A DNA stretch of 64,000 bases from Salvelinus alpinus (lineage: Eukaryota > Chordata > Actinopteri > Salmoniformes > Salmonidae): contig NC_092091.1 in NCBI RefSeq assembly GCF_045679555.1, forward strand, positions 19,626,572 through 19,690,571. The letters are read 5' to 3'. The notes under the pieces were generated by a model that was not told where the DNA came from, searched no databases, and worked only from the letters and a program-made list of their open reading frames with translations. The translations under genes and the position numbers were made by a program. Position 1 is the stretch's first letter. Each line of letters starts with the position of its first letter. This document shows positions 3,551 through 54,396 of this stretch, one piece after another.

Positions 3551-4738
3551 TATACATTATATACAAAAGTATGTAGACACCCCTTAAAATTTGTGGATTC
3601 GGCTATTTCAGCCACACCTGTTCCTGACAGGTGTATAAAATCGAGCACACAGCCAAGCAATCTCCATAGACAAACATTGGCAGTACAATGGCCTTACTGA
3701 AAAGCTCAGTGACTTTCAAAGTGGCACCGTCATAGGATGCCACCATTCCAACAAGTCAGTTAGTCAAATGTTTTGCCCTGCTAGAACTACCCTGGTCAAC
3801 TGTAAGTGTTGTTATTGTGAAGTGGAAATGTCTAGGAGCAACAACGGCTCAGCAGTGAAGTAGTAGGGCAAACAAGCTCACAGAACGGGACCGCCGAGAG
3901 CTGACTACCGAGTTCCAAACTACATCTGGAAGCAACGTCAGCACAAGAACTGTTCGTCGGGAGCTTCATGAAATGGGTTTCCATGGCTGAGCAGCCACAC
4001 ACAAGCCTAAGATCACCATGCGCAATGACAAGCGTCGGCTGGAGTGGTGTAAGTCTTGCTGCCATTGGACTCTGGAACAGTGGAAATGCGTTCTCTGGAG
4101 TGATGAATCACGCTTCATCATCTGGCAGTCCGAAGGATGAATCATGGGTTTGGCAGATGCCAGGAGAATGCTACCTAACCCAATGAGTAGTGCCAACTGT
4201 AAAGTTTGGTGGAGGAGGAATAATGGTCTGGGGCTGTTTTTCATGGTTCGGGCTAGGCCCCTTAGATCCAGTGAAGGGAAATCTTAATGCTACAGCATAC
4301 AATTACATTCTAGATGATTTTGTGCTTCCAACTTTGGGGAAGGGGAAGGCCCTTTCCTGTTTCAGCATGACAATGCCCCCGTGCACAAAGCGAGGTCTGA
4401 GAAGAGATGGTTTGTCAAGATCGGTGCGGAAGAATTTGACTGGCCTGCACAGAACCTTGACCTCAACCCCATCAAACACCTTTGGGATGAATTGGAACAC
4501 CGAAAGCGAGCCAGGCCTAATCGCCCAACATCAGTGCCCGACCTCACAAATGCTCTTGTGGCTGAATGGAAGCAAGTCCCCGCAGCAATGTTCCAACATC
4601 TAGTGGAAAGCCTTCCCATCAGAGTGGAGGCTGTTATAGTAGCAAAGGGCGGACCAACCTTATATTAATGCCCATGATTTTGGAATGAGATGTTTGACAA
4701 CCAGGTGTCCACATACTTTTGATAATGTAGTGTGTATA
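3551..4738 (+). mobile_element. Degenerate Tc1-like transposon with transposase pseudogene
   Basis: The element is bounded by imperfect inverted ends, each containing CAAAAGTATGT.GACACC when oriented alike. Transposase similarity runs left to right but is broken. A piece near 4190-4360 contains [16 protein letters not shown] frame shift near 4360 then leads into [11 protein letters not shown], the second catalytic Asp block, and SPxxxNPI.HLWDEL-type text around 4440-4500. The third catalytic acid is changed: the block reads [10 protein letters not shown] where Tc1 family members have NPIEHLWDEL. A segment near 3895 is also missing relative to the family. It cannot encode active enzyme. The family (Tc1/mariner, DD34E) is clear; the subfamily name is not asserted. 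Confidence 0.85.
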
Positions 4739-5754: not shown

Positions 5755-6665
5755 TTTACAGATGCACAATTGAGAGCATCCTGTCGGGCTGTATCACCGC
5801 CTGGTAAGGCAACTGCACCGCCCTCAACCGCAAGGCTCTCCAGAGGGTGGTGCGGTCTGCACAGCACATCACCGGGGGCAAATGACCTGCCACCCAAGAC
5901 ACCTACAGCACCCGATGTCACAGGAAGGCCAAAAAGATCATCAAGGACAACAACCACCTGAGCCACTGTCTGTTCACCCCGCTACCATCCAGAAGGCGAG
6001 GTCAGTACAGGTGCATCAAAGCTGGGACAGAGAGACTAAAAAACAGCTTCTATCTCAAGGAGTTCACACTTAAACAGCAATCACTAACACAGAGGCTGCT
6101 GCCTACATACAGATTCATCATTAGCCACTTTAATAAATGGATCACTAGTCACTTTAAAAAATGCCACTTTAATAATATTTACATATCTTACATTACTCAT
6201 CTCATATATACAGTATATACTGTATTGTATACCATCTATTGCATCTTGCCTATGCCACTCGGCCATCGCTCATCCATAAATGTATGGATATATTTACAGG
6301 GCGGCAGGTAGCCTAATGGTTAGAGTATTGGGCCAGTAACCAAAAGGTTGCTAGATTGAATCCCTGAGCTGACAAGGTAAAACATTGGTTGTTCTGCACC
6401 TGAACAAGGCAGTTAACCCACTGTTCCTAGGCCGTCACTGTAAATAAGAATTTGTTCTTAACTGACTTGCCTAGTTAAATAAAAAAAAACATGTACATAT
6501 TCTAATTCCATCCCTTTACATTTGTGTGTATTAGGTAGTTGTTGGAAAATTGTTAGATTACTTGTTAGATATTACTGCACTGTTTGAACTAGAAGCACAA
6601 GTATTTCGCTACACTCGCATTAACATCTGCTAACCATGTGTATGTGACAAATAAAATTTGATTTG
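5755..6665 (+). mobile_element. 3' end of an L2/CR1-like LINE, split by a SINE
   Basis: Translating with frame shifts gives a LINE ORF2 C-terminus: ESILSGCITAW, then ALNRKALQRVV, a block with TYSTRCHRKAKKIIKDN, SRRRGQYRCIKAGTE and LKNSFYLK. This resembles the C-terminal part of fish L2-like reverse transcriptase proteins and is also seen at 15.5-16.9 kb. It is followed by a 3' UTR ending near 6665 in GACAAATAAAATTTGATTTG, the usual salmonid LINE tail. The UTR is interrupted by a SINE at 6298-6490. The 5' part is absent, the usual 5' truncation. Confidence 0.75.
6298..6490 (+). mobile_element. HpaI-type tRNA-derived SINE
   Basis: Starts GGGCGGCAGGTAGCCTAATG, with tRNA-like A-box (TAGCCTAATGGTTAGAG) and B-box-like (GGTTGCTAGATTGAATCC) text. 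It then has the salmonid SINE body with the diagnostic GTTAAC (HpaI) site, and ends TTGCCTAGTTAAAT plus an A tract. It lies inside the 3' UTR of the LINE above, so it is younger than that LINE. Confidence 0.85.
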
Positions 6666-7457: not shown

Positions 7458-7796
7458 CCTCCTGGGCGGCGCAGCGGTCTAAGGTACTGCATCTCAGTGC
7501 TTGAGGCGTCACAACAGACCCAGGTTTTATCCTTGGCTGTGTCACAGCAGGCCGTGACCGGGAGACCAATGAGGCGGCGCACAATTGGCCCAGTGTTAGG
7601 GGAGGATTTGGCTGGCCGGGATTTCCTTGTACAATCGCACTCTAGCAACTCCTTGTGGCGGGCCGGGTCAAGCAGTGCTGCTTGGCAGGGTCGTGTTTTG
7701 ACCCTGCCAAGCCTCTCCTGAGTCCGTAGGGGAGACTGTAACTACCAATTGGATATCACTAAATTAGGGAGAAAAAGGGGTCAAAAAAAAAAAAAA
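7458..7796 (+). mobile_element. tRNA-derived SINE (second salmonid type)
   Basis: Begins CCTGGGCGGCGCAGCGGTCT with a tRNA-like A-box, then a degraded B-box (CCAGGTTTTATCC). The body contains GGCGGCGCACAATTGGCCCA and the copy ends in GGGAGAAAAAGGGGTC plus an A run. The head is shared with the inverted SINE at 20.2 kb, but the 3' half is a different tail module, so these are two subfamilies. Confidence 0.75.
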
Positions 7797-10897: not shown

Positions 10898-12260
10898 AAG
10901 CTTGACACTACAAGCTTGGCACACCTGTATTTGGGGAGTTTCTCCCATTTTTCTCTGCAGATCCTCTCAAGCTCTGTCAGTTTGGATGGGGAGCGTAGCC
11001 GCACAGCTATTTTCAGGTCTCGCCAGAGATGTTAGATGGAGTATGAGTCCGGACTCTGGCTGGGCCACTCAAGGACATGTAGAGACTTGTCCCTGAAGCC
11101 ACTCCTGCATTGTCATGGCTGTGTGCTTAGGGTCGTTGTCCTGTTGGAAGGTGAACTTTCGCCCCGGTCTGAGGTCCTGAGTGCTCTGGAGCAGGTTTCC
11201 ATCAAGGATCTCCCTGTACTTTGCTCTGTTCATCTTTCTCTCCATCCTGACCAGTCTCCCAGTCCCTGTTGCTGACAAATATCCCCAAAGCATGATGCTG
11301 ACACCACCATACCTCACCGTATGGATGGTATTGCCAGGTGATGAGTGGTGCCAGGTTTCCACCAGACGTGATGCTTGGCATTCAGGCCAAAAAGTTCAAT
11401 CTTGGTTTCATCAGACCATAGAATCTTGTTTCTCATGGTCTGAGAGTCCTTTAGGTGCCTTTGGCAAACTCCAAGCGGGCTGTCGTGTGCCTTTTACTGA
11501 GGAGTGACTTCTGTCTGGCCACTCAACCATAAAGGCCTGATTGGTGGAGTGCTGCAGAGATGGTTGTCCTACTGGAAGGTTTTGCAATCTCCACAGAGGA
11601 ACTCTGGAGCTCTGTCAGAGTGACCATCGGGTTCTTGGTCACCTCCCTGACCAAGGCCCTTCTGCCCCGATTGCTCAGGTTGGCCGGGCGGCCAAATAGC
11701 TAGTTGGCGGGCTTCCTCTTCTAGCAAGAGTCTTGGTGGTTCCAAAGTCTTCAATTTAAGAATGATGGAGGCCACTGTGTTCTTGTGGACCTTCAACGCG
11801 GCAGTCATTTTATGGTACCCTTCCCCAGATCTGTGCCTCGACACAATCCTGTCTCAGAGCTCTACGGACAATTCCTTCAACCTCATGGCTTGGTTATTGC
11901 TCTGACATGAACAGTCAACTGTGGGACCTTATATAGGCAGGTGTGTGCCTTTCAAATCATGTCCAATCAATATAATTTACCACAGGTAGACTCCAATCAA
12001 GTTGTAAAAACATCTCAAGGATGATCAATGGAAACACGATGCACCTGAGCTCAATTTCGAGTCTCATAGCAAAGGATCTGAATACTTATGTAAATAAGGT
12101 ATTTCTGTTTTTGTTGCAAAAAGTTGCAAAAATATCTAAAAACCTGTTTTTCCTTTTCATTATGAGGTATTGTGTGTAGCTTGATGACCAAAAATGTTAA
12201 TTTAATCCATTTTAGAATAAGGCTGTAGTAAAGAGGTCTGAATACTTTCCGAATGCACTG
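10898..12260 (-). mobile_element. Degenerate Tc1-like transposon (left end lost)
   Basis: The right end, CTGAATACTTTCCGAATGCA, is the terminal repeat of the same Tc1 family as the copy at 15.3-18.9 kb. The transposase is on the minus strand and broken: 11844-11569 holds the N-terminal helix-turn-helix part (RHRSGEGYHKMTAALKVHKN, then TVASIIL), and 11362-11069 holds the catalytic part with a GGVSIMLWGYLSATGTG block and QQDNDPKHTA, which contains the second catalytic Asp. The left terminal repeat expected near 10.8 kb is missing. Pseudogene. Confidence 0.85.
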
Positions 12261-16890: not shown

Positions 16891-17262
16891 TGAATACCCT
16901 ATGATGACGAAGCAAAAACAGGTTTTAGAAATGTTTGCTAATTTATTTTAAAAAATGTAAACTGAAATGTACATAAGTATTCAGACCCTTTACTCAGTAC
17001 TTTGGCAGCGACTACAGCATCGCGTCTTTTTGGGTATGATGCTAAAAGTTTGGAACACCTGTATATGGGGATTTTCTCCCTTTCTTCTCCACAGATCTTC
17101 TCAAGTTCTGTCAGGTTGGGTGGGGAGCGTTGCTGCACAGCTATTTTAAGGTCTCTCCAGAGATGTTCGATCGGGTTCAAGTCCGGGCTCTGGCTGGGCC
17201 ACTCAAGGACATTCAGAGACTTGTCCCGAAGCCACTCCTGTGTGGTCTTGGCTGTGTGCTTA

Positions 17263-17498
17263 TGTAACGGATGTGAAATGGCTAGCTAGTTAGCGGGTAC
17301 GCGCTAATAGCGTTTCAATCGGTTACGTCACTTGCTCTGAGACTTGAAGTAGGGTTTCCCCTTGCTCTGCAAGGGCCGCGGCTTTTGTGGGGCGATGGGT
17401 AACGATGCTTCGTGGGTGACTGTTGTTGATGTGTGCAGAGGGTCCCTGGTTCGCGCCCGGGTATGGGCGAGGGGACGCACTAAAGTTATACTGTTACA
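17263..17498 (+). repeat. 5' terminal repeat of the miniature element
   Basis: 236 bp, with short inverted tips TGTAAC/GTTACA. It holds CTAGCTAGTTAGCGG near the start, a CRE-like TTACGTCA, and the Pol III B-box-like CTGGTTCGCGCCCGGG near position 210 of the repeat. Confidence 0.75.
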
Positions 17499-17561
17499 TT
17501 GATGCTGTTGACCCGGATCACTGGTTGCTGCGGAAAAGGAGGAGGTCGAAAGGGGGGTGAG

Positions 17562-17797
17562 TGTAACGGATGTGAAATGGCTAGCTAGTTAGCGGGTACG
17601 CGCTAATAGCGTTTCAATCGGTTACGTCACTTGCTCTGAGACTTGAAGTAGGGTTTCCCCTTGCTCTGCAAGGGCCGCGGCTTTTGTGGGGCGATGGGTA
17701 ACGATGCTTCGTGGGTGACTGTTGTTGATGTGTGCAGAGGGTCCCTGGTTCGCGCCCGGGTCGGGGCGAGGGGACGCACTAAAGTTATACTGTTACA
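17562..17797 (+). repeat. 3' terminal repeat of the miniature element
   Basis: The same 236 bp as the 5' repeat apart from two adjacent substitutions. Immediately preceded by the purine-rich tract of the core and immediately followed by the CTTA target duplication. Confidence 0.75.
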
Positions 17798-18865
17798 CTT
17801 AGAGTCGTTGTCCTGTTGGAAGGTGAACTTTCGCACCAATCTGAGGTCCTGAGTGCTCCGGAGCGGGTTTTCATCAAGGACCTCTCTGTACTTTGCTCCG
17901 TCCCTGCCGTTGAAAAAGATCCCTACAGCATGATGCTGCCACCACCATGCTTCACCGTATGGACGGTGCCAGGTGTCCTCCAGATGTATCGCTTGGCATT
18001 CAGGCCAAAGAGTTCATTCTTGGTTTCATCAACCAGAGAATCTTGTTTCTCATGGTCTGAGAGTATTTTGGTGCCTTTTGGAAAACTCCAAGCGGGCTGT
18101 CATGTGCCTTTATACTGAGGAGTGGCTTCCATCTGGCCACTCCACCATAAAGGCCTGATTGGTGGAGTGATGCAGATATAGTTGTCCTTCTGGAAGGTTC
18201 TCATCTCCACAGAGGAACTCTACAGCTCTGTCAGTGTGACCATCAGGTTCTTAGTCACCTCCCTGACCAAGGCCCTTCCCCGATTGCTTAGTTTGGCCGG
18301 GCGGCCAGCTCTAGGAAGAGTCTTGGTGGTTCCAAACATCTTTCATTTAAGAATGATGGAGGCCACTGTGTTCTTCGGGACCTTCAATGCTGCAGAAATG
18401 TTTTGGTACCCTTTCCCAGATCTGTGCCTCGACACAATCCTGTCTCTGAGCTCTATGGACAATTCCTTCGACCTCATGGCTTGGTTTTTGCTCTGACATG
18501 CACTGTCAACTGTGGGACCTTATATCGACAGGTGCTTGCCTTTCCAAATCATGTCCAATCATTTGAATTTACCACAGGTGAACTCCAATCAAGTTTTAGA
18601 ATTATCTCAAGGATGATTAATGGAAAACAGGATGCACCTGAGCTCAATTTTGATTCTCATCGCAAAGGGGCTGAATACTTATGTAAATAAGATTTTTTTT
18701 TAATGTGCAAACATTTCTAAAAACCTGTTTTGGCTTTGTCATTATGGGATATTGTGTGTAGATTGCGGAGGGATTTTTTTTCTTTCACCCATTTTCGAAT
18801 AAATCTGTAATGCAACAAAATGTGGAAAAAGTCAAGCAGTCTGAATACTTTGCGAAGGCACTGTA

Positions 18866-19689: not shown

Positions 19690-20502
19690 GAAAATGTTAC
19701 AGATTCGTCCGTCTAACTGCCAGAAGGTGAAGCGTGATTCATCAATCCAGAGAACGCGTTTGCACTGCTCCAGAGTCCAATTGAGTCGAGCTATACACCA
19801 CTCCAGCCGATGCTTGGCATTGCGCATGGTGATCTTAGGCTTGTGCGCGGCTGCTCGGCCATGGAAACCCATTTCATTAAGCTCTCGACAAACAGTTCTT
19901 GTGCTGATGTTGCTTCCAGAGGCAGTTTGGAAATCGGTAGCGAGTGTTGCAACGAAGGACAGTTTGTACGCACTACATGCTTCAGCACTCGGTCCCGTTC
20001 TGTGAGCTTGTGTGGCTAGCATGGCTAGTGGCTAACATTAGCCAGCTTGAGCTAGCTAACGAGCTAGCATTCGAACTCGGTAGCACAGAGTAGATTCTCC
20101 ATATAACGTTGAGAAATAGTGCATTGTGGGTAATTTAGAAGATATCTGGAAATTAGTTAATAAATATTTAAAAACAGAACTATGTTTTTACTTACAAGTA
20201 TTTTTTAAATGTTTACTAGGCAAGTCAGTTAAGAACAAATTCTTATTTACAATGACAGCCTACACTGGCCAAACCCCGACAACGCTGGGCCAATTGTGCG
20301 CCGCCCTATGGGACTCCCAATCCCGTCCGGTTGTGATACAGCCTGGATTTGAACGAGGGTGTCTGTAGTGATGCCTCTAGCACTGGGGTGCAGTGCCTTA
20401 GACAGCTGTGCCACTCGGGAGCCCGTCAGCAACAGGTGTGGCTGAAGTAACCAAATCCACTAAATTGAAGGGGTGTTCACATACTTTTGGCCATGTAGTG
20501 TA
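19690..20502 (-). mobile_element. Truncated Tc1-like transposon
   Basis: The right terminal repeat (TTCACATACTTTTGGCCATG) and a minus-strand transposase fragment (FQTASGSNISTRTVCRELNE, then KRVLWIDESRFTFW) match the family of the 3.55-kb copy. W.DESRF contains the first catalytic Asp. The fragment ends abruptly near 19690, so the left part is lost. An inverted SINE (20213-20425) and about 180 bases of other sequence separate the transposase piece from its terminal repeat. Confidence 0.8.
20213..20425 (-). mobile_element. tRNA-derived SINE, inverted
   Basis: Read on the minus strand it starts with the head GGCTCCCGAGTGGCACAGCT. It continues with the GGCGGCGCACAATTGGCCCA body and ends TTGCCTAGTAAACATT, the common salmonid SINE tail. 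It lies inside the Tc1 remnant and so is younger than it. Confidence 0.8.
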
Positions 20503-20522: not shown

Positions 20523-20946
20523 TGTAACGGATGTGAAATGGCTAGCTAGTTAGCGGTGGTGCGCGCTAATAGCCTTTCAATCGGTGACGTCACTTGTTCT
20601 GAGACCTTGAAGTAGTGGTTCCCCTTGCTCTGCAAGAGCCGCGGCCTTTGTGGAGTGATGGGTAACGATGCATAACGACGCCATAAAAGTTAAACTGTTA
20701 CATTGATGCTGTTGCAATGTAACAGTTTAACTTTAGTCCGTCCCCTCGGGCGCGAACCAGGGACCCTCTGCACACATCAACAACAGTCACCCACGAAGCA
20801 TCGTTACCCATCGCTCCACAAAGGCCGCGGCTCTTGCAGAGCAAGGGGAACCACTACTTCAAGGTCTCAGAGCAAGTGACGTCACCGATTGAAAGGCTAT
20901 TAGCGCGCACCACCGCTAACTAGCTAGCCATTTCACATCCGTTACA
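20523..20946. mobile_element. Head-to-head (fold-back) pair of the miniature element's terminal repeat
   Basis: Arm 1 (20523-20702, 180 bp) is the same TGTAAC...GTTACA repeat as at 17.26 kb, lacking about 57 internal bases. Arm 2 (20718-20946, 229 bp) is a near-complete copy in the opposite orientation. Only 15 bases, TTGATGCTGTTGCAA, lie between them. The first 12 equal the start of the 17-kb element's core. The flanks TTAC and CTAC could be a mutated 4-bp target duplication. Both arms contain a perfect CRE palindrome, TGACGTCA. The structure would form a long hairpin. Confidence 0.75.
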
Positions 20947-21961: not shown

Positions 21962-24900
21962 GTAAGGCAACATTCATATACGTTCTCCTGTGTGCATGCA
22001 AAACATTTTCCCCGCACCCCGAATGGATGATGGAAAACTTTCTTGGCTGTGCTAAATGGTGCGAGATGAGCCAGACTTGTTCACAAAAACTCGCTTTCTT
22101 AAATATTTATGAACTAAAATATGGCAGTGTGTTTTGTAAATAGCTACAAGTTAAATCGGTCATCAGCGGTCTTTTGCTGTGTGCCTAGACCTTCAAATAT
22201 AGCGGTAGTCATTGGCCTATACCAGGCTAGCTAGCAGCCATCGTCGCGAACCAACAGGCTGCTGTCGCTAGTTAGCTGGCTAGCTAGACAACACGAGCTA
22301 CTTCGGTCGAACTTTTAGCTACATTCGCTAAATCCGTCAAGTAACATGAATCACGAACAGTCTTCATTTATGTATTTTTTTTCACGATCGTAGTACTTTA
22401 TCGATACTATATTCACACACAAAGTCTTGAATAAAGTTCGAGCTTGTAGAAGTCCTCTAATAAAGATCGTTAGCATTTGGCTTGATAACCTATTCACGTT
22501 GTATTCAAACATGTTTTTTGTACAAAGTAGCAACACATTGCTAATACGTTTTAACACGTAACACGCTAACCAACTGTTAATGCCGTGACTAGTTTACCTT
22601 GTAAAATTAAACGTTAGATGGTGTTTTGTTCATGCTTAATTTGTTACCATGCATGGCATGATGTCAGACTTCTCGGCCTCTGAATGTGTCCATCGTACAG
22701 TAACTAGACTTTTTTTTTTGCCTGAGCTTTGTTGTGTGCATGCGCGATACATCGTCAGACGTTTGGGTGCTTTGTTACCAAAACATGCATCTAACTAACG
22801 AAACAAAGTGTGTATGTGGGGTGATTTGCTTTTTGACTTTAAATTACATTTGAACGTCTTTGAAAACTCGCATAATATTACCTACACAAGTTTCACTCAC
22901 AAAAGAGTGGTAGAAATGGGAAGGTCAACAAATCAATGGGGCGTTGAGACGTGAATGTGTAACGTGTTGATGCTTTTCTCCATAGATCATTAGATACACT
23001 TCACATAAAGTTGGGCGCCATGAATTCTAATTTAATGGATATCAATTAGCGACGTTTACGCATTGCAAAACAGTAGCCTATGTTGTTAGTGATAGTTGAA
23101 TCATTTTCAATGTAGTTCAGCATAATAATCATGGAATATTCATTGTCCATTAATCATGTCCAGTTAACTTATTACTTCCCCATAATGTGGTAGACTGCTA
23201 TGACAAGGTTATTGTGCATTTTGGGTGTATACATGTACATAGCAGGATGATGATCATTCTTATAAAACTGGATATGCCATGCTTGCCTTGTTTACATACT
23301 AAAGCCATTCTCTATTCCACAGATTATTTCAGTTTATTTTGTTTCCCTTAAATTGTTCTCAAGCCTATTGAAATATGTTGTTATAAATGCAAATTCGTCC
23401 TATTCTCTTCTTAATCCTTTCCCATGTTTTCCGCACATGGTTGTCACGTTGCCTCTTGTCAAAGGCTGGCCATAAAGAGCCTTTAAAGATAGATATGGTT
23501 GTTTATAGCTCTATCTGCCGTGATTGTCAAAAATGAACAATCATAACCGAGTTTGGTGACCCCAGTGCTTGCAGGGAGATCATTGGCGGAAATCAGACGA
23601 GGGATGGTAGAATGCTTCTGAGTTGACCTCTCACACTCATCTCAGTTTTGATTAACAGTTGCCAAGACCCATGTGGGCTTCAGTTACTAGAGAATGTATG
23701 CACACAGTTTGCAACCAAGGATCTTTTCGAACTGTCTGGGGAAAAATATTTCAATGTTTTTATTATTGGCAAGTTCATTATGCCCGTTGGATTTAAAACA
23801 GTTTGGAGGACTTGTTGATTAGCCTATGTCAGATCTTCTTTCAATGTTGATAAAAAATATTGTTTATATTTATGTTTTCAGTCTTATTGAGGCTGTTTAT
23901 TTAAGTGTGTGTTATGTCTGTGACATCTTATGACACTTGCACAGGCAATAAGTTGATGTAATGCAAATGCACCTGGCATCTAGAGCTTCAAGATAAGACT
24001 ATAATATTCTCAAAACATCAAACATTGGAATACATAGTCTCCTTGTCGCCCCCAACATATTCACTGACAGATGCACAGTACTGAGTAATAACTTCACACA
24101 GGAAGTGCCAAATGTATACACTCCCAACATCTTTGGCCAGCTGTTGCTCAATGCTGAACAAGCATGGCTCTTTGTGCAGTTCCTCTTGGGTCTGAATTCA
24201 GCCTCGTATACAGTGGTCATGTGCCATGCTCCTTAATGCCCCCCATATTGACCCAGCAACAGCCAAACCATATTCAACACCCTTAAGCAAACTACACAGA
24301 TTGGCTTCCTCCAGCAGTGAAGCACTGTGTTATTTCAGTGAGGGTGAGTTGAGGGAAATATGTTTTGACTGACCATTCCCGTGTGGGCTGGTGTAGTTGG
24401 GTTTTAATGAGCTCTTTATTGACGTAAACTCCATAGGTGGAAAAGTTTGGCTGTCCTGCTGCACGTAGCTAGGCTGTACAGCTAACGTGTTTAGACCCTG
24501 AAAATGCACTATAACAAAGTTATTAGGCAGTGAACAAACTAATAAGAGTGATTTCTATTGGACTTTTTAAAATTTTATTATATGGTCGTTACAGTTGTGT
24601 TACGCAGTTTTTTCATTATCAATGTTCATTCTTACAATGAGTTGAGACACAAAACACATTCGTATACACTACCATGAACTAGGCCTAGCTATATCTTCGC
24701 TTTGACTTACACATGAATGGTTCAAATTCTAAATAAAATACTTTCCCTCTAATGTTTCTGGTCACCTGTTATTGGGGGGGTTGTTGGCAACTTTAGCGAT
24801 GATCAACATGTAACACCTGCCTACCGTTTCCTCTCCCCACAGCACACTGCCAGCAGTGTCGTATCCAGCGCTGCAATGCGGAGTACGTGGCCTCTACCTC

Positions 24901-27900
24901 GCCCTCTAGTGGTCTCCAAGAGGACTCCCTGTCCGATGTGGACTACTGCATCGCCCTGCGCGCCTACGCCCTGTGTACCCGACGCACGGCGCGCAGCTGC
25001 AGGGGCGACCTGGTCTACCACTCAGCTGTGTTCCGCATCAAGGAGCTCTTCTCCCAGCAAAACTGCTCCAGCGACGGGCCCACCTCCTCGGCCAAGGCCA
25101 CCAGCACCTCCAGGCCGGCCGTGTCCGAGCTATGCGACTACGAGAGCCGTGTGCTGGCCTTGGGCCCCGCAGGCCAGGGGGAAAAGTACGCCCACTGTGG
25201 ATTATTCGGGGACCCACACCTGCGGACGTTCCGCGACGAGTTCCAGACGTGCAAGGTGGAGGGGGCATGGCCTCTCATCGATAACCGCTACCTGTCAGTG
25301 CAGGTGACTAACGTGCCTGTTGTCCTGGGCTCCAGTGCCACCGCCACCAGCAAGGTAAGCTGTGCTATGGGTTCACATCTGGTCATGTTGCTGACAGTAA
25401 TGTCATTAAAACACTGAAAAACTTAGGGCTCAATCATAACAAAGATACTTGAACTTTTAATGTACAGTACCAGTCAAACGTTTGGACATACGTACTCATT
25501 CAAGGGTTTTTCTTTATTTTTACTATTTCCTACGTTGTAGAATAATTGTGAAGACATTAAAACTATGAAATAATACATATGGAATCATGTAGTAACCAAA
25601 AAAGAGTTAAACAGATCAAAATATATTTTATATTTAAGTTTCTTCAAAGTAACCATCCTTTTCCTTGATGACAGCTTTGCACAGTCTTGGCATTCTCTCA
25701 ACCAGCTTCATGAGGTAGTCACCTGGAATGGATTTCAATTAACAGGTGTGCCTTGTTAAAAGGTAATTTGTGGAATTCTTTTTTTTTTTTATGCGTTTGA
25801 GCCAATCAGTTGTGTTGTGACAAGGTTGGGGTGGTATACAGAAGATTGCCTTAATAGGTAAAAGACCAAGTCCATATTATGGCAAGAACAGCTCAAATAA
25901 GCAAAGAGAAACTACAGTCCATCATTACTTTAAGACATGAAGGTCAGTAAATCCAGAAAATGTCAATAACTTTGAGTGCAGTTGCAAAAACCATAAAGCG
26001 CTATGATGAAACTGGCTCTCATGAGGACCGCCACAGGAAGGAAAACCGAGTTACCTCTGCTGCAGAGGAAAGGTTCATTAGAGTTAACTGCACCTCAGAT
26101 TGCAGCCCAAATAAATGCTTCACAGAGCTCAAGTAACAGACACATCTCAACATCAACTGTTAAGAGGAGATGGCGTGAATCAGGCCTTTATGGCTGAATT
26201 GCTGCAAAGAAACCACTACTAAAGGACACCAATAATAAGAAGAGACTTGCTTGGGCCAAGAAACACAAGTAATGAACATTAGACCGGTGGAAATCTGTCC
26301 TTTGGGCTGATGATTCCAAATTTGAGATTTTTGGTTCCAAGCACCATGTCTTTGTGAGACGCAGAATTGGTGCACGGATGATCTCCGCATGTGTGGTTCC
26401 AACCATGAAGCATGGAGGAGGCGGTGTGGGGGTGTTTTGCTGGTGACACTGTCTGTGATTTATTTAGAATTCAAGGCACACTTAACCGGCATGGCTACTA
26501 CAGCATTCTGCAGCGATACTCTATCCCATCTGGTTTGCGCTTAGTAGGACTATCATTTGTTTTTCTCCGGGACAATGACCCAACACATCTACAGGCTGTG
26601 TAAGGGCTATTTGTCCAAGAAGTACAGTGATATAGTGCTGCATCAGATGACCTGGCCTCCACAATCACCCGACCTCGACCCAATTGAGATGGTTTGGGAT
26701 GAGTTGGACCGCGGAGTGAAGGAAAAGTAGCCAACAAGTGCTCAGTATATGTGGGAACTCCTTCAAGACTGTTGGAAAAGCATTCCTCATGAAGCTGGTT
26801 GAGAGAATGCCAAGAGTGTGCAAAGCTGTCATCAAGGCAAAGGGTGGCTACTTTGAAGAATATAAAATGTACATAATATTTTGATTTGTTTAACACTTTT
26901 TTGGTTAATACATGATTCCATATGTGTTATTTCATTGTTTTTGATGTCTTCACTATTATGCTACAATGTAGAAAATAGTAAAAATAAAGATATCTCTTGA
27001 ATGAGTAGGTATGTCCAAACCTTTGACTGGTACTGTATGTCATACATTGAAGTCAAAGGGAGATGGTTCAATATATAGAAATATTATCTCAAGTTAGGAT
27101 TCAATCTGTCTCTACTGCCTCCAGGGACCCTACCTCTGACCTTCCTCTTCCAGACACTAGTGGAAAGACTGGGTCATTCAGTGGGTGTCACACCCTGACC
27201 ATAGAGAGCTTTTTATTCTCTATGTTGGTTAGGTCGGGGTGTGACTAGGGTGGGTCATCTAGAAAATTATATTTCTATGTTGGCCTGGTATGGTTCCCAA
27301 TCAGAGGCAGCTGTTTATCGTTGTCTCTGATTGGGGATCATATTTAGGCAGCCATTTCCCCTTTGTGGGATCTTGTTTTTGTGTAGTGCCTGTGAGCACT
27401 GCATTCTTCTTCACGTTTCATTTATTCATTTATTGTTTTGTTTTGCTTTGAGTTTCACATAGAAATAAAAGATGTGGAACCCAGATCACGCTGCGCTTTG
27501 GTTCAGTTATTATGACTATCGTGACAGTGGGGTTGGATCAGGGACATGCTTGAGCGCTTTATCTCTAACACATGGGTAGTCATATGGTAGTGATTAACGC
27601 TTGCTCAAACATTTTCCTCTCCCACAATTGGACAACCTTTTTCAGCTCTCTAGTCAAATAATTAACAGATCTTTTTGTGTAAATATGGAATTATTTGGAT
27701 AAATAACTACGTTTTTTGGTAGAAGCATCATATTTTTGATTCTACTGAATGAGTTTGGCTTTTCATAATATAATCTGATCCCTGAAATCTGAATTTAAGT
27801 CTGGTTCTTTGGCTATATTTATACTGAAGACCATACTTGGAGCTCAATGTATTATTTGTAGATATGCACTAGATGAATACAACACTTGGTAGACACAAAA

Positions 27901-30900
27901 AAGTAGGCCTATCAATTTTACTAGTGCTAGCCGACCTTGCCACATTTGCTTTTTTTCTAAGATAATCTATTTTTATCAGTACTGTTATTTTCAGCTCCAT
28001 GTGAATTACAAGCAACAGCACCAACGATTTGGTTTTGGACTAGCCAGACTATGAGAAGACCAATAGAAATTGGCCTAGGCCAAATCATATAGGCTAGATT
28101 CTATAAAAACAAAGTTATACTAACTGTGGTCTGCAACTTTCTTTCATATCAGAGTTTGTTGAAATCCATGAACCTCAAGGATTTTAGTAAATAACCTTCG
28201 CTAGATTGCATATGCGTTTTCAAAGTAATCCAAAGACTACTAAAAAGAGAACTGTTTGAACAGATTTCAGACCCAATTATTTAAAATAGTTTTGAGTGCA
28301 TATGAGGGGAAAAATACAAAGCTGTAAGTCAGGGCGCCGGTGCCAACACCCGCATGCCCTCACCGTCCGCTTGAAATGGGGTCATTTTCAACTGTTACAG
28401 TAGAGAAAGGAAATCGTTCATCAAAAACGGTATCCCCGTAACTGTAAAGTTAACCATAGCCACCTCTTTTACGAACAGCTTTGATGAAATGTCGGCCTAC
28501 TACAAAAAATCTAGACATGACTCCAGAGTTGTCCAGACCCTGTGGCAGTTGTAGTGGAAGGTATTTCTGATTTATGGGTCTATCAGACAGCTGGGTTTGT
28601 TTGATCCTGCACTCTCTCAAGAAAAAGTATGGAGCCATACATATGCAATGGTTTATGACATTTACATTGATATTTGTTTTAGAAGGCACATATTGAGAAG
28701 GCCTAGTTGTTTCTTTGGGGTTGATTATCTCTAAATTGGTGGGCCAAGACATCATCTATGTGTTAGTGATGTTTTCTAGTCCATATTTACTGTAAAATAA
28801 AGAGCATAATGAATATTTCTGCTCACGGTGCTTTCCTTCCTTCAGATTACACAATAGTTTTATACCTTTTCCAAGTAAAGACAGGAATTTGAGTTTTCAA
28901 ACTTTGAAATGAACTGTTCCCCATGTCATAAAAAGTGAAGGTCCTGCTGACATACTGTGGCTCAACATGGTATTACACCTTTTGAATGCTTCTGATGGTT
29001 CTGCTGCTTAGTAGACCTATTAGTAATCTGTGTACCGGTATACAGAACACAACTTTCAAAAGATTTTACCTTCATGCAGTACTATTGAAAGAGTAGAAGG
29101 GTAGATGTTAATTGAATTTCCTCCAATTAATAACTTCTTATGGCTGAGATCCCGTTAACGGGATCAACTTGACAACAGCCAGTGAAAGTGCAGGGCGCCA
29201 AATTCAAAACAGAAATCTCATAATTAAAATTCCTCAAACATACAAGTATTTTACACCATTTTAAAGATAAACTTGTTGTTAATCCCACCACAGTGTACGA
29301 TTTCAAATAGCCTATACGACGAAAGCACACCATCTGATTGTTAGGTCAGTACCTAGTCACAGAAAAACACAGCCATTTTTCCAGCCAAAGAGAGGAGTCA
29401 CAAAAAGCAGAAATAGAGATAAAATGAATCACTAACCTTTGATCTTCATCAGATGACACTCATAGGACTTCATGTTACACAATACATGTATGTTTTGTTC
29501 GATAAAGTTCATATTTATATCCAAAAATCTTAGTTTACATTGGCGCGTTATGTTCAGTAATGTTTTGCCTCCAAAACATCTGGTGATTTTGCAGAGAGCC
29601 ACATCAATTTACAGAAATACTCATAATAAACATTGATAAAAGATACAAGTATTATACATGGAACTTAGGGATAGGGGGCAGAATTTTCACTTTGGATGAA
29701 TAGCGTGCCCAAAGTGAACTGCCTCCTACTCTGTCCCAGATGCTAATATATGCATAGTATTATTACTATTGGATAGAAAACACTCTGACTTTTCTAAAAC
29801 TGTTTGAATGATGTCTGTGAGTATAACAGAACTCATATGGCAGGCAAAAACCCAAACAGGAAGTGGGAATTCCGAGGCTGGTCGATTTTCAACTCATCGC
29901 CTATTGAAATCCCAGTGGGATATGGATCTGTTTGCACTTCCTACGCCTTCCACTAGATGTCAACAGTCTGTAGAGCGTTGAATGAAGCTTCTACTGTGAT
30001 GTTGAGCCGGATGGGAGCTGTTTTAGTCAGTGGTCTGGCAGAGTGCCAGGTCCTAGTCACGCGCATTCCAAATTATATCCACTTGTGTTCCATTACTTCT
30101 ACAGACACAAAGGAATTCTCCGGTTGGAACGTTATTGAATATTTAAGATAACAACATCCTAAAGATTGATTCTATAGTTAGTTTGACAAGTTTATTCAAA
30201 CTGTAATATAACTTTTTTAAGTTTTCGTCCGACGTTCACCTGGACCTGCACGAGCGTTTGGATGTGTGTACTAAACGCGCTAACAAAGTCGCTACTTGGA
30301 CATAAATAATGGACATTATCGAACAAAACAACAAGTTATTGTGGAACTAGGATTCCTGGGAGTGCATTCTGATGAAGATCATCAAAGGTAGGAAGTGCAA
30401 TATGACCCCATAGACACTGTATATTGGATAGGCAAACCTAAAAACCTCAGATTTCCCACTTCCTGGTTAGATTTTTTTCTCAGGTTTTTGCCTGCTATAT
30501 GAGTTCTGTTATACTCACAGACATCATTCAAACAGTTTTAGAAACTTCAGAGTGTTTTCTATCCAAATCTACTAATAATATGCATATCTTAGCTTCTGGG
30601 CCTGAGTAGCAGGCAGTTTACTCTGGGCACCTTATTCATCCAAGCTACTCAATACTACCCCCAGCCATAAGAAGTTTTAAATCAGGAATGGACTTTCATT
30701 CACTGGCATCTCTTTGTTTGTGTCTTCCAGATAACGGTGATCTTCAAGTCGTACCATGGCTGTACGGAGCAGAAGGTGTACCAGGCCACCACAGAGGACC
30801 TACCCTCTGCCTTCCAGGATGGCACACGGAGTGGCGGGGAGGGCGGCAGTCTGTGGATCGTAGAGAAGGGCGACTCCGGGGGTCGCCTGGTGAAGATCCA

Positions 30901-31429
30901 GGCCCGCTACATCGGGACGTCCATCATAGTGCGCCGGGTGGGCCGCTACCTTACCTTTGCCATCCGCATGCCGGAGGACACCCTTGACTTTTCTGAGGAG
31001 AACAGTGGGCTGCAGCTCTGTCTGCATGGATGCCCGCGCAACGAGCTCATCAAGGAGCACATGCTGGGGCGCCAGCCTCTTCACCCCCGCCTCCCAGGCT
31101 CCGGGTCTAACCCCGAGCTGGGGCCCCTCCTGCCCCCACACCAGATCTACACAGTGGAGCATGCCACAGCCAAGTGCAGGGAGACCCTGCAGGTGGAGGA
31201 CGTGTACTTCCAGTCCTGTGTGTTTGACCTGCTCACCACGGGGGACCCTGAGTTCTCCATGGCAGCCTACGGGGCACTGGAGGATCTGAAGGCCCTTCCT
31301 CCCAGCAAACTGAAGCAGAACTCTCCGAGGACTCCTCGTGTCCAACTCAACAGAGGGGGGCCACACATGCTGGCTACAGCCACCCCCAGTCTGGTCACAT
31401 TCCTGCTCCTGGTTCTGCTGCTTTTGTAA
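21868..31429 (+). CDS. rgmd: Repulsive guidance molecule family protein, RGMb/RGMd-type (3 coding exons)
   Basis: GPI-anchored surface protein that binds neogenin and acts as a BMP co-receptor. Exons 21868-21961, 24843-25354 and 30731-31429 join in phase (1, then 0) to give 434 aa, the usual RGM length. Order: N-terminal hydrophobic signal (TMALLSLLL); Cys-rich RGM N-domain with [16 protein letters not shown] (RGD, residues 85-87); FGDPHLRTF, the partial von Willebrand D-like segment whose GDPH (154-157) is the family's autocleavage site; a conserved C-domain with [13 protein letters not shown]; and a hydrophobic tail ([13 protein letters not shown]) typical of GPI addition. No disruption is seen. 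Closest remembered relative is RGMb ([21 protein letters not shown]), but ALCTRRTAR and RGD recall RGMa/hemojuvelin. Linkage to a celf5-like gene favours rgmd, the fish fourth paralogue; rgmb is the alternative. Family certain, paralogue about 0.6. Confidence 0.93.
21962..24842 (+). other. RGM intron 1
   Basis: A 2881-bp intron with GTAAGG and CAG boundaries. I see no recognisable transposon or exon inside. The relative lack of repeats contrasts with intron 2 and with the 5' flank. Confidence 0.6.
24843..25354 (+). CDS. rgmd: RGM coding exon 2 (N-domain, RGD and GDPH site)
   Basis: The acceptor is CTCTCCCCACAG (ending 24842) and the donor GTAAGC (25355). The exon encodes residues 32-202 from [11 protein letters not shown] through [15 protein letters not shown], an N-glycosylation site (NCSS) and [12 protein letters not shown] to SSATATSK. 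The autocleavage bond of the family, Asp-Pro in GDPH, lies at 25213/25214. GC-rich codon usage stands out from the AT-rich flanks. Confidence 0.95.
25465..27035 (+). mobile_element. Tc1-like transposon in RGM intron 2, transposase degraded
   Basis: The inverted ends CAGTACCAGTCAAACGTTTG and CCTTTGACTGGTACTG (as read at the right end) are flanked by TA (25463-25464 and 27036-27037). Transposase fragments run left to right: ITSAAEER-type linker, [11 protein letters not shown] (first Asp region) near 26305, KHGGGGV near 26410, [11 protein letters not shown] (second Asp region) near 26570 and [10 protein letters not shown] (Glu) near 26680. Stops and frame shifts make it a pseudogene. It lies in the same orientation as the host gene. 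Confidence 0.88.
27186..27526 (+). mobile_element. Solo LTR with 5-bp target duplication (sister of the 10.3-kb copy)
   Basis: The 341-bp unit starts TGTCACACC and ends TCGTGACA. It is flanked by GTGGG on both sides (27181-27185 and 27527-27531). It shares the internal hairpin (CCAATCAGAGGCAGC with GTTGTCTCTGATTGG) and an AATAAA signal near the 3' end. It lies in RGM intron 2 in sense orientation, so it contributes a potential cryptic polyadenylation signal. Confidence 0.78.
27532..29130 (+). other. RGM intron 2, unassigned part
   Basis: AT-rich intron sequence with no recognised exon, RNA gene or transposon end. Confidence 0.4.
29131..30676. mobile_element. Inverted-repeat element ending 54 bp before RGM exon 3
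   Basis: The outer tips AACTTCTTATGGCTG (29132 on) and CAGCCATAAGAAGTT (to 30676) are inverted copies. Inside, 29660-29870 matches the reverse complement of about 30440-30665 (TTGGATAGAAAACACTCTGA, CTGTTTGAATGATGTCTGTG, TATAACAGAACTCATAT). No ORF of note. The block around GGATAGAAAACACTCT is also present in the element at 36.2 kb, so the two belong to related families. Class is uncertain: a non-autonomous DNA transposon is likely. Confidence 0.6.
30731..31429 (+). CDS. rgmd: RGM coding exon 3 (C-domain and GPI signal)
   Basis: The acceptor TTGTGTCTTCCAG ends at 30730. The exon encodes residues 203-434, starting [20 protein letters not shown], through [20 protein letters not shown] and IRMPED to [13 protein letters not shown], and ends in the hydrophobic tail [12 protein letters not shown] and TAA at 31427-31429. 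No frame break. Confidence 0.95.
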   Translation: MTVIFKSYHGCTEQKVYQATTEDLPSAFQDGTRSGGEGGSLWIVEKGDSGGRLVKIQARYIGTSIIVRRVGRYLTFAIRMPEDTLDFSEENSGLQLCLHGCPRNELIKEHMLGRQPLHPRLPGSGSNPELGPLLPPHQIYTVEHATAKCRETLQVEDVYFQSCVFDLLTTGDPEFSMAAYGALEDLKALPPSKLKQNSPRTPRVQLNRGGPHMLATATPSLVTFLLLVLLLL

Positions 31430-49125: not shown

Positions 49126-49334
49126 GTTGCAGGATGTTTCACGGTTCGAATAGAATTGGATGATCCTTTAAAACCAGCCTCTTGTTGAAAATGTGCAATC
49201 TTGGGTGTAATGTGAATGAGTCTATTTGAGGAGGATCTCAATATGGATGGTGGCTACTTTGAAAGTAAGCTCCATGGTGGAGCATCAGCCCTCGCTGAGA
49301 AACGGCCCCTGGGGACCACCTCGGTAAAGACAGA

Positions 49335-52300
49335 GTAGTAAAGAGCCTCTATAGAGAAGTAAATAGTTTCTATAGAGAAGTAAAGAGCCTATATAGAGAA
49401 GTAAAGAGCCTCTATAGAGAAGTAACGAGCCTCTATAGAGAAGTAAATAGTTTCTATAGAGAAGTAAAGAGCCTCTATAGAGAAGTAAAGAGCCTCTATA
49501 GAGAAGTAAATAGTTTCTATAGAGAAGTAAAGAGCCTCTATAGAGAAGTAAAGAGCCTCTATAGAGAAGTAAAGAGCCTCTATAGAGAAGTAAATAGTTT
49601 CTATAGAGAAGTAAAGAGCCTCTATAGAGAAGTAAAGAGCCTCTATAGAGAAGTAAAGAGTCTCTATAGAGAAGTAAAGAGCCTCTATAGAGAAGTAAAG
49701 AGCCTCTATAGAGAAGTAATGAGCCTCTATAGAGAAGTAAAGAGCCTCTATAGAGAAGTAATGAGCCTCTATAGAGAAGTAAAGAGCCTCTATAGAGAAG
49801 TAAATAGCCTCTATAGAGAAGTAAATAGCCTCTATAGAGAAGTAAAGAGCCTCTATAGAGAAGTAAATAGCCTCTATAGAGAAGTAAATAGCCTCTATAG
49901 AGAAGTAAAGAGCCTCTATAGAGAAGTAAAGAGCCTCTATAGAGAAGTAAAGAGCTTCTATAGAGAAGTAAAGAGCCTCTATAGAGAAGTAAATAGCCTC
50001 TATAGAGAAGTAAAGAGCCTCTATAGAGAAGTAAAGAGCCTCTATAGAGAAGTAAATCTTTTCTATAGAGAAGTAAAGAGCCTCTATAGAGAAGTAAAGA
50101 GCCTCTATAGAGAAGTAAAGAGCTTCTATAGAGAAGTAAAGAGCCTCTATAGAGAAGTAAAGAGCCTCTATAGAGAAGTAAAGAGCCTCTACAGAGAAGT
50201 AAAGAGCCTCTATAGAGAAGTAATGAGCCTCTATAGAGAAGTAAAGAGCCTCTATAGAGAAGTAAATAGCTTCTAAAGAGAAGTAAATAGCTTCTATAGA
50301 GAGGTAAAGAGCCTCTAAAGAGAAGTAAAGAGCTTCTATAGAGAAGTAAAGAGCCTCTATGGAGAAGTAAAGAGCCTCTATAGAGAAGCAAAGAGCTTCT
50401 ATAGAGAAGTAAAGAGCCTCTATAGAGAAGTAAAGAGTCTCTACAGAGAAGTAAAGAGCTTCTATAGAGAAGTAAAGAGCCTCTACAGAGAAGTAAAGAG
50501 CTTCTATAGAGAAGTAAAGAGCCTCTATAGACAAGTAAAGAGTCTCTATAGAGAAGTAAAGAGCCTCTATAGAGAAGTAAATCTTTTCTATAGAGAAGTA
50601 AAGAGCCTCTACAGAGAAGTAAAGAGCTTCTATAGAGAAGTAAAGAGTCTCTATAGAGAAGTAAAGAGCCTCTATAGAGAAGTAAATATTTTCTATAGAG
50701 AAGTAAAGAGCCTCTACAGAGAAGTAAAGAGTTTCTATAGAGAAGTAAAGAGCCTCTATAGAGAAGTAAAGAGCCTCTATAGAGAAGTAAAGACCCTCTA
50801 TAGAGAAGTAAAGAGCCTCTACAGAGAAGTAAAGAGCCTCTATAGAGAAGTAATGAGCCTCTATAGAGAAGTAAAGAGCCTCTATAGAGAAGTAAATAGC
50901 TTCTAAAGAGAAGTAAATAGCTTCTATAGAGAGGTAAAGAGCCTCTAAAGAGAAGTAAAGAGCTTCTATAGAGAAGTAAAGAGCCTCTATGGAGAAGTAA
51001 AGAGCCTCTATAGAGAAGCAAAGAGCTTCTATAGAGAAGTAAAGAGCCTCTATAGAGAAGTAAAGAGTCTCTACAGAGAAGTAAAGAGCTTCTATAGAGA
51101 AGTAAAGAGCCTCTACAGAGAAGTAAAGAGCTTCTATAGAGAAGTAAAGAGCCTCTATAGACAAGTAAAGAGTCTCTATAGAGAAGTAAAGAGCCTCTAT
51201 AGAGAAGTAAATCTTTTCTATAGAGAAGTAAAGAGCCTCTACAGAGAAGTAAAGAGCTTCTATAGAGAAGTAAAGAGTCTCTATAGAGAAGTAAAGAGCC
51301 TCTATAGAGAAGTAAATCTTTTCTATAGAGAAGTAAAGAGCCTCTACAGAGAAGTAAAGAGCTTCTATAGAGAAGTAAAGAGCCTCTATAGAGAAGTAAA
51401 GAGCTTCTATAGAGAAGTAAAGAGCCTCTATAGAGAAGTAAAGAGTCTCTACAGAGAAGTAAAGAGCTTCTATAGAGAAGTAAAGAGCCTCTACAGAGAA
51501 GTAAAGAGCTTCTATAGAGAAGTAAAGAGCCTCTATAGAGAAGTAAAGAGCCTCTATAGAGAAGTAAAGAGCCTCTATAGAGAAGTAATGAGCCTCTATA
51601 GAGAAGTAAAGAGCCTCTATAGAGAAGTAAATAGCTTCTAAAGAGAAGTAAATAGCTTCTATAGAGAAGTAAAGAGCCTCTACAGAGAAGTAAAGAGCTT
51701 CTATAGAGAAGTAAAGAGCCTCTATAGAGAAGTAAAGAGCCTCTATAGAGAAGCAAAGAGCTTCTATAGAGAAGTAAAGAGCCTCTATAGAGAAGTAAAG
51801 TGTCTCTACAGAGAAGTAAAGAGCTTCTATAGAGAAGTAAAGAGCCTCTACAGAGAAGTAAAGAGCCTCTATAGAGAAGTAAAGAGCCTCTATAGAGAAG
51901 TAAAGAGCCTCTATAGAGAAGTAAAGAGCCTCTACAGAGAAGTAAAGAGCCTCTATAGAGAAGTAATGAGCCTCTATAGAGAAGTAAAGAGCCTCTATAG
52001 AGAAGTAAAGAGCCTCTACAGAGAAGTAAAGAGCCTCTATAGAGAACTAATGAGCCTCTATAGAGAAGTAAAGAGCCTCTATAGAGAAGTAAATAGCTTC
52101 TAAAGAGAAGTAAATAGCTTCTATAGAGAAGTAAAGAGCCTCTACAGAGAAGTAAAGAGCTTCTATAGAGAAGTAAAGAGCCTCTATAGAGCAGTAAAGA
52201 GCCTCTATAGAGAAGCAAAGAGCTTCTATAGAGAAGTAAAGAGCCTCTATAGAGAAGTAAAGAGTCTCTACAGAGAAGTAAAGAGCTTCTATAGAGAAGT

Positions 52301-54262
52301 AAAGAGCCTCTACAGAGAAGTAAAGAGCTTCTATAGAGAAGTAAAGAGCCTCTATAGAGAAGTAAAGAGTCTCTATAGAGAAGTAAAGAGCTTCTATAGA
52401 GAAGTAAATATTTTCTATAGAGAAGTAAAGAGCCTCTACAGAGAAGTAAAGAGCTTCTATAGAGAAGTACAGAGCCTCTACAGAGAAGTAAAGAGCTTCT
52501 ATAGAGAAGTAAAGAGCCTCTATAGAGAAGTAAAGAGTCTCTACAGAGAAGTAAAGAGCTTCTATAGAGAAGTAAAGAGCCTCTACAGAGAAGTAAAGAG
52601 CTTCTATAGAGAAGTAAATATCCTCTATAGAGAAGTAAAGAGCCTCTATAGAGAAGTAAAGAGCCTCTACAGAGAAGTAAAGAGCCTCTATAGAGAAGTA
52701 ATGAGCCTCTATAGAGAAGTAAAGAGCCTCTATAGAGAAGTAAATAGCTTCTAAAGAGAAGTAAATAGCTTCTATAGAGAAGTAAAGAGCCTCTACAGAG
52801 AAGTAAAGAGCTTCTATAGAGAAGTAAATAGCTTCTATAGAGAAGTAAATAGCTTATATAGAGAAGTAAAGAGCCTCTATAGAGAAGTAAAGAGTCTCTA
52901 TAGAGAAGCAAAGAGCCTCTATAGAGAAGTAAAGAGCCTCTATAGGGAAGTAAATAGCTTCTATAGAGAAGTAAAGAGCCTCTATAGAGAAGTAAAGAGC
53001 CTCTATAGAGAAGTAAAGAGCCTCTATAGAGAAGTAAAGAGCCTCTATAGAGAAGTAAAGAGTCTCTATAGAGAAGTAAAGAGCCTCTATAGAGAAGTAA
53101 AGAGCCACTATAGAGAAGTAAAGAGCCTCTATAGAGAAGTAAAGATCCTCTATAGAGAAGTAAAGATCCTCTGTAGAGAAGTAAAGAGCCTCTATAGAGA
53201 AGTAAAGAGCCACTATAGAGAAGTAAAGAGCCTCTATAGAGAAGTAAAGAGCTTCTATAGAGAAGGGAAGATCCTCTATAGAGAAGTAAAGATCCTCTAT
53301 AGAGAAGTAAAGAGCCTCTATAGAGAAGTAAAGAGCCTCTATAGAGAAGTAAAGAGCCACTATAGAGAAGTAAAGAGCCTCTATAGAGAAGTAAAGAGCT
53401 TCTATAGAGAAGGGAAGATCCTCTATAGAGAAGTAAAGATCCTCTATAGAGAAGTAAAGAGCCTCTATAGAGAAGTAAAGAGCCACTATAGAGAAGTAAA
53501 GAGCCTCTATAGAGAAGTAAATCGTTTCTATAGAGAAGTAAAGAGCCTCTATAGAGAAGTAAAGAGCCTCTATAGAGAAGTAAAGAGCCTCTATAGAGAA
53601 GTAAAGAGCCACTATAGAGAAGTAAAGAGCCTCTATAGAGAAGTAAAGATCCTCTATAGAGAAGTAAAGATCCTCTATAGAGAAGTAAAGAGCCTCTATA
53701 GAGAAGTAAAGAGCCACTATAGAGAAGTAAAGAGCCTCTATAGAGAAGTAAATCGTTTCTATAGAGAAGTAATGAGCCTCTATAGAGAAGTAAAGAGCCA
53801 CTATAGAGAAGTAAAGAGCCTCTATAGAGAAGTAAAGAGCTTCTATAGAGAAGTAAAGAGCCTCTATCGAGAAGCAAAGAGCCTCTATAGAGAAGTAAAG
53901 AGCTTCTATAGAGAAGTAAAGAGCCTCTATAGAGAAGCAAAGAGCCTCTCTAGAGAAGTAAAGTACCTCTATAGAGAAATAAAGAGCCTCTCTAGAGAAG
54001 TAAAGTACCTCTATAGAGAAATAAAGAGCCTCTATAGAGAAGTAAAGTACCTCTATAGAGAAATAAAGAGCCTCTCTAGAGAAGTAAAGTACCTCTATAG
54101 AGAAATAAAGAGCCTCTATAGAGAAGTAAAGTACCTCTATAGAGAAATAAAGAGCCTCTCTAGAGAAGTAAAGTACCTCTATAGAGAAATAAAGAGCCTC
54201 TCTAGAGAAGTAAAGTACCTCTATAGAGAAATAAAGAGCCTCTATAGAGAAACAAAGAAGTA
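49335..54262. repeat. Giant 21-bp minisatellite, about 235 copies over 4.9 kb
   Basis: The unit is GAAGTAAAGAGCCTCTATAGA with point variants (AGCTTC, CTACAG, AATAG, ATCTTTTC, GAAGCAAAG, GATCCT). Phase is kept almost throughout, so frames stay open for up to 1551 codons on the minus strand (LLLYRGS heptads), 591 codons in another minus frame (FSIEALY), and 185 codons on the plus strand (SLYREVK). Each consensus unit contains the 10-base palindrome CTCTATAGAG. Blocks of variants recur at multiples of 21 (630, 735 and 462 bp), showing larger-scale duplication. The right end (53940-54250) alternates two unit types (GAAGTAAAGTACCT and GAAATAAAGAGCCT). I regard the frames as by-products of period 21, not as genes. 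Confidence 0.95.
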
Positions 54263-54396
54263 AAGTAAAAACAAAAGTAATATGAGGCTAAATTAAATTG
54301 TGTTCTCAGTATATTCTTCATAATCCCACTAGTGCAATTGAAAGTATCTATATCAAATGTTGAGCAGTTTCACCCCCTTTTCTCTCTCAGAGATAT

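Follow-up and report, generated by a model that had tools for sequence, protein, structure and literature searches.

Helenus (TRIMp3) is the name given by Kojima in 2024 to terminal-repeat retrotransposons in miniature (TRIMs) that carry a tRNA-like stretch in their LTRs (PMC10886601). The elements described there are 311-1263 bp long, those of animals are flanked by 4-bp duplications, and those of vertebrates use tRNA-His, Leu or Lys as primers. Fish families such as the zebrafish LTR-11_DR are aligned with tRNA-Val in a figure of that paper, and a Selaginella element is singled out for its short core of 85 bp. The chordate hosts in its Table 1 are coelacanth, sterlet, paddlefish and Ostariophysi, with no Salmoniformes in that table. 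The same paper proposes, but does not demonstrate, transcription of Helenus by RNA polymerase III. In the plant TRIM Cassandra, another miniature LTR element, the LTR likewise carries a promoter sequence like that of a small-RNA gene, in this case 5S rRNA (PMC10886601), and retrozymes are small non-autonomous LTR-type retroelements that carry hammerhead ribozymes (PMC4918200; PMC10886601).

The window analysed here, a 64-kb stretch of salmonid DNA, contains at 17263-17797 a 535-bp unit that is a real and complete miniature LTR retrotransposon and probably a new member of the Helenus type. We put the probability that it is a complete TRIM, most likely of the Helenus type with tRNA-like sequence in the LTR, at about 0.8. 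Like the described Helenus elements, it is shorter than 1000 bp and has two LTRs with a GGTTC-bearing tRNA-like stretch, a primer site, a purine tract and a 4-bp duplication, and the best of 29 tRNAs for its primer site is tRNA-His, with an imperfect match. The likeness to families such as LTR-11_DR lies in these described features. The element differs from the published account in that its box A is weak; its LTR matches tRNA-Phe best (tRNA-Val for the inverted LTR of a second locus), whereas the fish figure has tRNA-Val; its tRNA-His complementarity has a second block past the 3' end; and the order of its host, Salmoniformes, is absent from the published host table. The TRIM layout proposed in the original prediction stands, with the correction that fish TRIMs with tRNA-like LTRs are already published (PMC10886601). 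Unlike Cassandra, the element has no 5S match: an Rfam search returned none for 5S rRNA, the mark of Cassandra and Ajax, at E-values up to 5 in 17000-18100 or up to 10 in the 3' LTR. The hammerhead ribozymes that mark retrozymes are likewise unmatched in the same two regions at the same thresholds.

The anatomy had been predicted as two 236-bp repeats with two adjacent differences, a 63-bp core and a CTTA duplication, and all of it is confirmed to the base. The 5' LTR (17263-17498) and the 3' LTR (17562-17797), both on the plus strand, are identical at 234 of 236 positions, and a direct repeat of this length at 99% identity is beyond chance. The differences fall at repeat positions 201-202, which read AT in the 5' copy and CG in the 3' copy, and both LTRs have TGTAAC...GTTACA ends. 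The plus-strand core lies at 17499-17561, and the longest ATG ORF in the whole element is 43 amino acids. There is no tail at the 3' end. The element combines, in less than 1000 bp, two LTRs, a short non-coding core, a short terminal target duplication, an imperfect primer site just internal to the 5' LTR and a purine tract just internal to the 3' LTR. These features, together with the empty site described below, bear out the earlier reading as a very small non-autonomous LTR element.

The target-site duplication CTTA is present on both outer ends, at 17259-17262 on the left and 17798-17801 on the right. The element splits a transposon copy that has terminal inverted repeats and that we take to be a Tc1, from these repeats and a transposase motif in the translated frame; a Pfam search with one ORF of the split copy gave no family. 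Removing the element and one CTTA in silico and aligning the joined flanks with an uninterrupted relative of the host transposon about 6 kb away (10908-11226) gives 87.5% identity over 319 columns. The join itself has no alignment gap; a gap of one base is present some 35 bases away. The relative has a single CTTA and reads ...GTGTGCTTAGGGTCG... at the join, and so represents the empty site. The gapless junction and the single CTTA indicate that the element was inserted in one piece, with a stagger of 4 bp, in line with the predicted precise splitting of a Tc1 copy. Integrase-type insertion gives a stagger of this kind. The Tc1-like copies in the window are DNA transposons, and their part here is that of a landing site only, with one copy split by the element. 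The relative of the split transposon extends over 10908-12098 in pieces of 82-87% identity, and a Sleeping Beauty-type HTH domain is found by Pfam among the ORFs of the window.

The core begins with what appears to be a primer-binding site for tRNA-His. None of the 29 tRNA sequences used in the comparisons was taken from a database. Core bases 2-35 (34 bases) resemble the reverse complement of the 3' half of tRNA-His, starting from the CCA end. Of the 33 aligned columns 29 match; the core has one additional base and skips five tRNA bases, which lie in and beside the T loop. The putative primer-binding site proper (17500-17518, plus strand) starts one base from the 5' LTR and matches 15 of the first 18 tRNA bases, with one inserted core base. 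It is followed at 17523-17533 on the plus strand by an exact 11-base block, GGTTGCTGCGG, that is complementary to the variable loop and anticodon arm of tRNA-His and collinear with the first block. This second block presumably ends at tRNA-His nucleotide 38. The mismatches within the first 12 core bases are a trait of the family and not decay of this copy, because the second locus shares these 12 bases exactly.

With the comparison anchored at the CCA end and a core offset of 0-3, tRNA-His scores 15 and the next of the 29 tRNAs scores 9. A score of 15 was reached by 1 of 4000 shuffled cores, in which base content only was preserved, and by none of 4000 63-mers from the window; a smaller anchored run gave none of 240 shuffled cores and none of 240 window segments. 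Unanchored comparisons of the core with tRNA-His at three gap costs were equalled by 18, 10 and 53 of 3000 shuffles and by 27, 18 and 56 of 3000 window segments, respectively. Many of the top window segments fall in the second locus of the family or in 20328-20380. The latter lies within 20193-20490, which scores as an antisense tRNA, has relatives at 6428-6495, 7459-7597 and 3564-3628, and which looks like a tRNA-derived SINE. When the whole core was compared with whole tRNAs, 2 of 500 shuffles were as good under gapped scoring and 13 of 500 under strict scoring. When only core bases 1-25 and the 20 bases at the tRNA 3' end were compared, 12 of 500 shuffles did as well under gapped scoring and 179 of 500 under strict scoring, and an ungapped 16-base comparison of the core with the 3' ends of the 29 tRNAs gave at best 10 of 16 matches. 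An imperfect primer-binding site just inside the 5' LTR is thus supported by the anchored comparison and more weakly by the unanchored ones.

The original prediction had named TGGTTGCTGCGG, 23 bases into the core, as a candidate primer site, and had asked for a core segment complementary to a tRNA 3' end. The named sequence does exist but does not correspond to a tRNA 3' end; the site proposed here is core 2-20, and it is this segment that supplies the imperfect tRNA-His complement. As a stand-alone primer site TGGTTGCTGCGG was rejected: what it matches, at 11 of 12 bases, is the anticodon arm and variable loop of tRNA-His and not a 3' end. Self-priming by pairing of core bases 1-25 with the LTR was also rejected; the longest helix is 10, a length equalled in 74 of 200 shuffled cores.

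The rest of the core is a purine tract that abuts the 3' LTR (17534-17561, plus strand; 25 of 28 purines by hand count), as had been predicted. The last 30 core bases contain 27 purines; across the window, 165 of 63970 plus-strand positions, the element's own included, are at least as purine-rich. The core ends directly before the 3' LTR as ...AAAGGGGGGTGAG. The 63 bases are therefore made up of 34 that are imperfectly complementary to tRNA-His, 28 of purine tract and one other. The core, which looks like a copied half of tRNA-His joined to a purine tract, is the most interesting part of the element. The gap in its tRNA copy at the T loop presumably covers the region of m1A58, and the end of the GGTTGCTGCGG block at nucleotide 38 adjoins G37, which we take to be m1G in eukaryotic tRNA-His. 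A T-loop gap together with a stop beside G37 is the pattern that would be left if plus-strand synthesis had read through the tRNA primer past its usual stop. In the endogenous retroviruses studied in PMC7472051, as described there, mutations of the primer site do not match modified tRNA positions, which counts against read-through. Tentatively, and as a doubtful proposal, we read the core as a minimal two-primer cassette that belongs to a Helenus lineage from a fish order missing from the published host table; the long complement would then be either a fossil of primer read-through or a selected extended primer contact.

The LTRs contain a stretch similar to the T arm and B box of a tRNA. At LTR positions 179-200, 20 of 22 bases agree with the T arm of tRNA-Phe in both LTRs of the element (17441-17462 and 17740-17761, plus strand), and the letters of the two stretches are identical. 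Against dinucleotide-preserving shuffles, the strict T-arm score was reached by none of 1000 for each of these LTRs, whereas 9 of 1000 equalled that of the inverted second-locus LTR. With another scoring the 3' LTR was equalled by 2 of 1000, the 5' LTR by none and the inverted LTR by 1, while the antisense strand of the 3' LTR, used as a control, gave 278 of 1000 (strict) and 92 of 1000 (second scoring). Under loose gapped scoring, 7 of 300 shuffles were as good. The best tRNA is Phe for the element and Val for the inverted LTR, where it ties with Phe under strict scoring. Against the consensus used, box B shows a single mismatch, and 17 of 1000 shuffles were as good. Helenus elements also have a box A (TRGCY...YGG), for which the best site here is a weak stretch at LTR 126-137 (17388-17399 in the 5' LTR, plus strand) with two mismatches to the consensus. 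It is not significant, since 461 and 495 of 500 shuffles were as good or better for the two consensus forms used. Searches for a whole tRNA with ARAGORN, across the 64-kb window, and with Rfam, in the 3' LTR, found none.

Among other transcription signals, neither TATAWA nor AATAAA/ATTAAA occurs in the element. The only T4 run is at LTR 121, one per LTR, and is missing from both second-locus LTRs. Over 226 aligned columns, 10 substitutions separate the 3' LTR from the inverted LTR of that locus, and none of these substitutions falls in LTR 130-215, the region with the tRNA-like part, but this region has a 10-base gap. The lack of substitutions there may hint at constraint, a pattern noticed after the fact. 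The predicted RNA fold of the 3' LTR has a z-score of -3.65 (1 of 200 shuffles as good), and that of the whole element, whose two LTRs are mutual copies, has a z-score of -6.04 (0 of 100). Rfam gave four weak matches in the inverted LTR, all under the gathering score, and one weak match in 17000-18100 that lies outside the element.

The family has two loci in the 64-kb window. The second, at 20523-20946, has two LTRs of a slightly different subfamily arranged head to head. The left LTR (20523-20702, plus strand) has most of LTR 147-215, the tRNA-like part, missing or replaced. It is followed by a plus-strand spacer of 15 bp (20703-20717), the first 12 bases of which are the first 12 of the 63-bp core, and by the inverted LTR (20718-20946, minus strand), which keeps the B box but lacks 10 bp beside it. 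The outer flanks read TTAC and CTAC, agreeing at three of four bases. It is possible that this locus arose from two plus-strand strong-stop DNAs, each an LTR with its primer site, that were end-joined before integration. Alternatively, a nested insertion in the opposite direction followed by a deletion is possible. At the deletion in the left arm (20672-20682) a short filler, ATAACGACGCC, resembles the adjoining TAACGATGC, and from its letters the filler may be the product of templated end-joining repair.

An RGM-family gene has exons at 24803-25417 and 30671-31429; the first, whose best solved-structure relative is RGM domain family member B, has the second locus about 4 kb upstream. These exons mark the DNA as that of a vertebrate, and its repeat types, with the Sleeping Beauty-type HTH domain in agreement, suggest a fish and a salmonid. 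Elsewhere in the window, 49285-54287 is a tandem repeat of about 5 kb in which both strands have long open frames, of 1554 aa stop-to-stop on the minus strand, and is probably a minisatellite. The region 61542-63757 has an RVT_1 domain in 62674-63063 and no Pfam match in 61870-62325, and probably represents pieces of a LINE-like element.

The LTR patterns had no match in viral and prokaryote contigs, and the whole element had none in phages and plasmids, as would be expected of fish DNA; these are not fish-genome collections, and the results have no bearing on copy number. Among the matches listed in literature searches, no title or abstract opening names this element, and sequence words from the LTR led to no paper in the collection searched. 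A 1988 paper reportedly describes a salmonid repeat resembling a retroviral LTR. This could be the same family, in which case the 535-bp element would be less novel.

The layout and the purine tract would fit any LTR element, including one that is simply an internally deleted descendant of an autonomous Gypsy or retrovirus-like element and in which the tRNA-like LTR stretch is chance, or an old SINE remnant, with no promoter role. The non-significant box A and the failure of whole-tRNA models also agree with such an origin. However, the T-arm match is hard to reach by chance under strict scoring, the core holds little besides the primer site and the purine tract, and the TATAWA and AATAAA/ATTAAA signals are missing from the element. 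We regard this derivation as unlikely.

The tRNA-like B box is also typical of SINEs, so the unit might be a SINE dimer, or another non-LTR repeat, in which two copies are joined by a linker. SINEs have a tail, duplications of variable length and no LTRs, whereas here each repeat has TGTAAC/GTTACA ends, the 4-bp duplication stands at the exact outer ends, a 3' tail is lacking, and a purine tract and a tRNA-complementary site lie inside; a dimer is thus very unlikely. The 99% identity of the repeats could also come from local tandem duplication of a solo LTR or from an assembly artefact. This seems extremely improbable, as CTTA flanks the whole unit, the relative at 10908-11226 has a clean empty site, and the first 12 core bases recur at 20703 beside an LTR of a different subfamily.

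If the element is a Helenus-type TRIM, a short RNA would be made from its LTR, possibly by RNA polymerase III, and an autonomous Gypsy-type element would provide the enzymes in trans. A tRNA-His primer would start the minus strand of DNA and the purine tract of the core the plus strand, and the helper integrase would insert the product with a 4-bp stagger.

With 63 bp, the core falls below the 85 bp of the Selaginella element described in PMC10886601, although at 535 bp the whole element is not the shortest in that account. Since the core is roughly one tRNA site and one purine tract, the element would be well suited as a natural test of the cis signals that suffice for mobilisation in trans. 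A comparison of copies at the long complement to tRNA-His would allow primer read-through, or an extended primer contact, to be tested. If the family is confirmed genome-wide in the salmonid host, a teleost lineage outside Ostariophysi would join those with Helenus elements.
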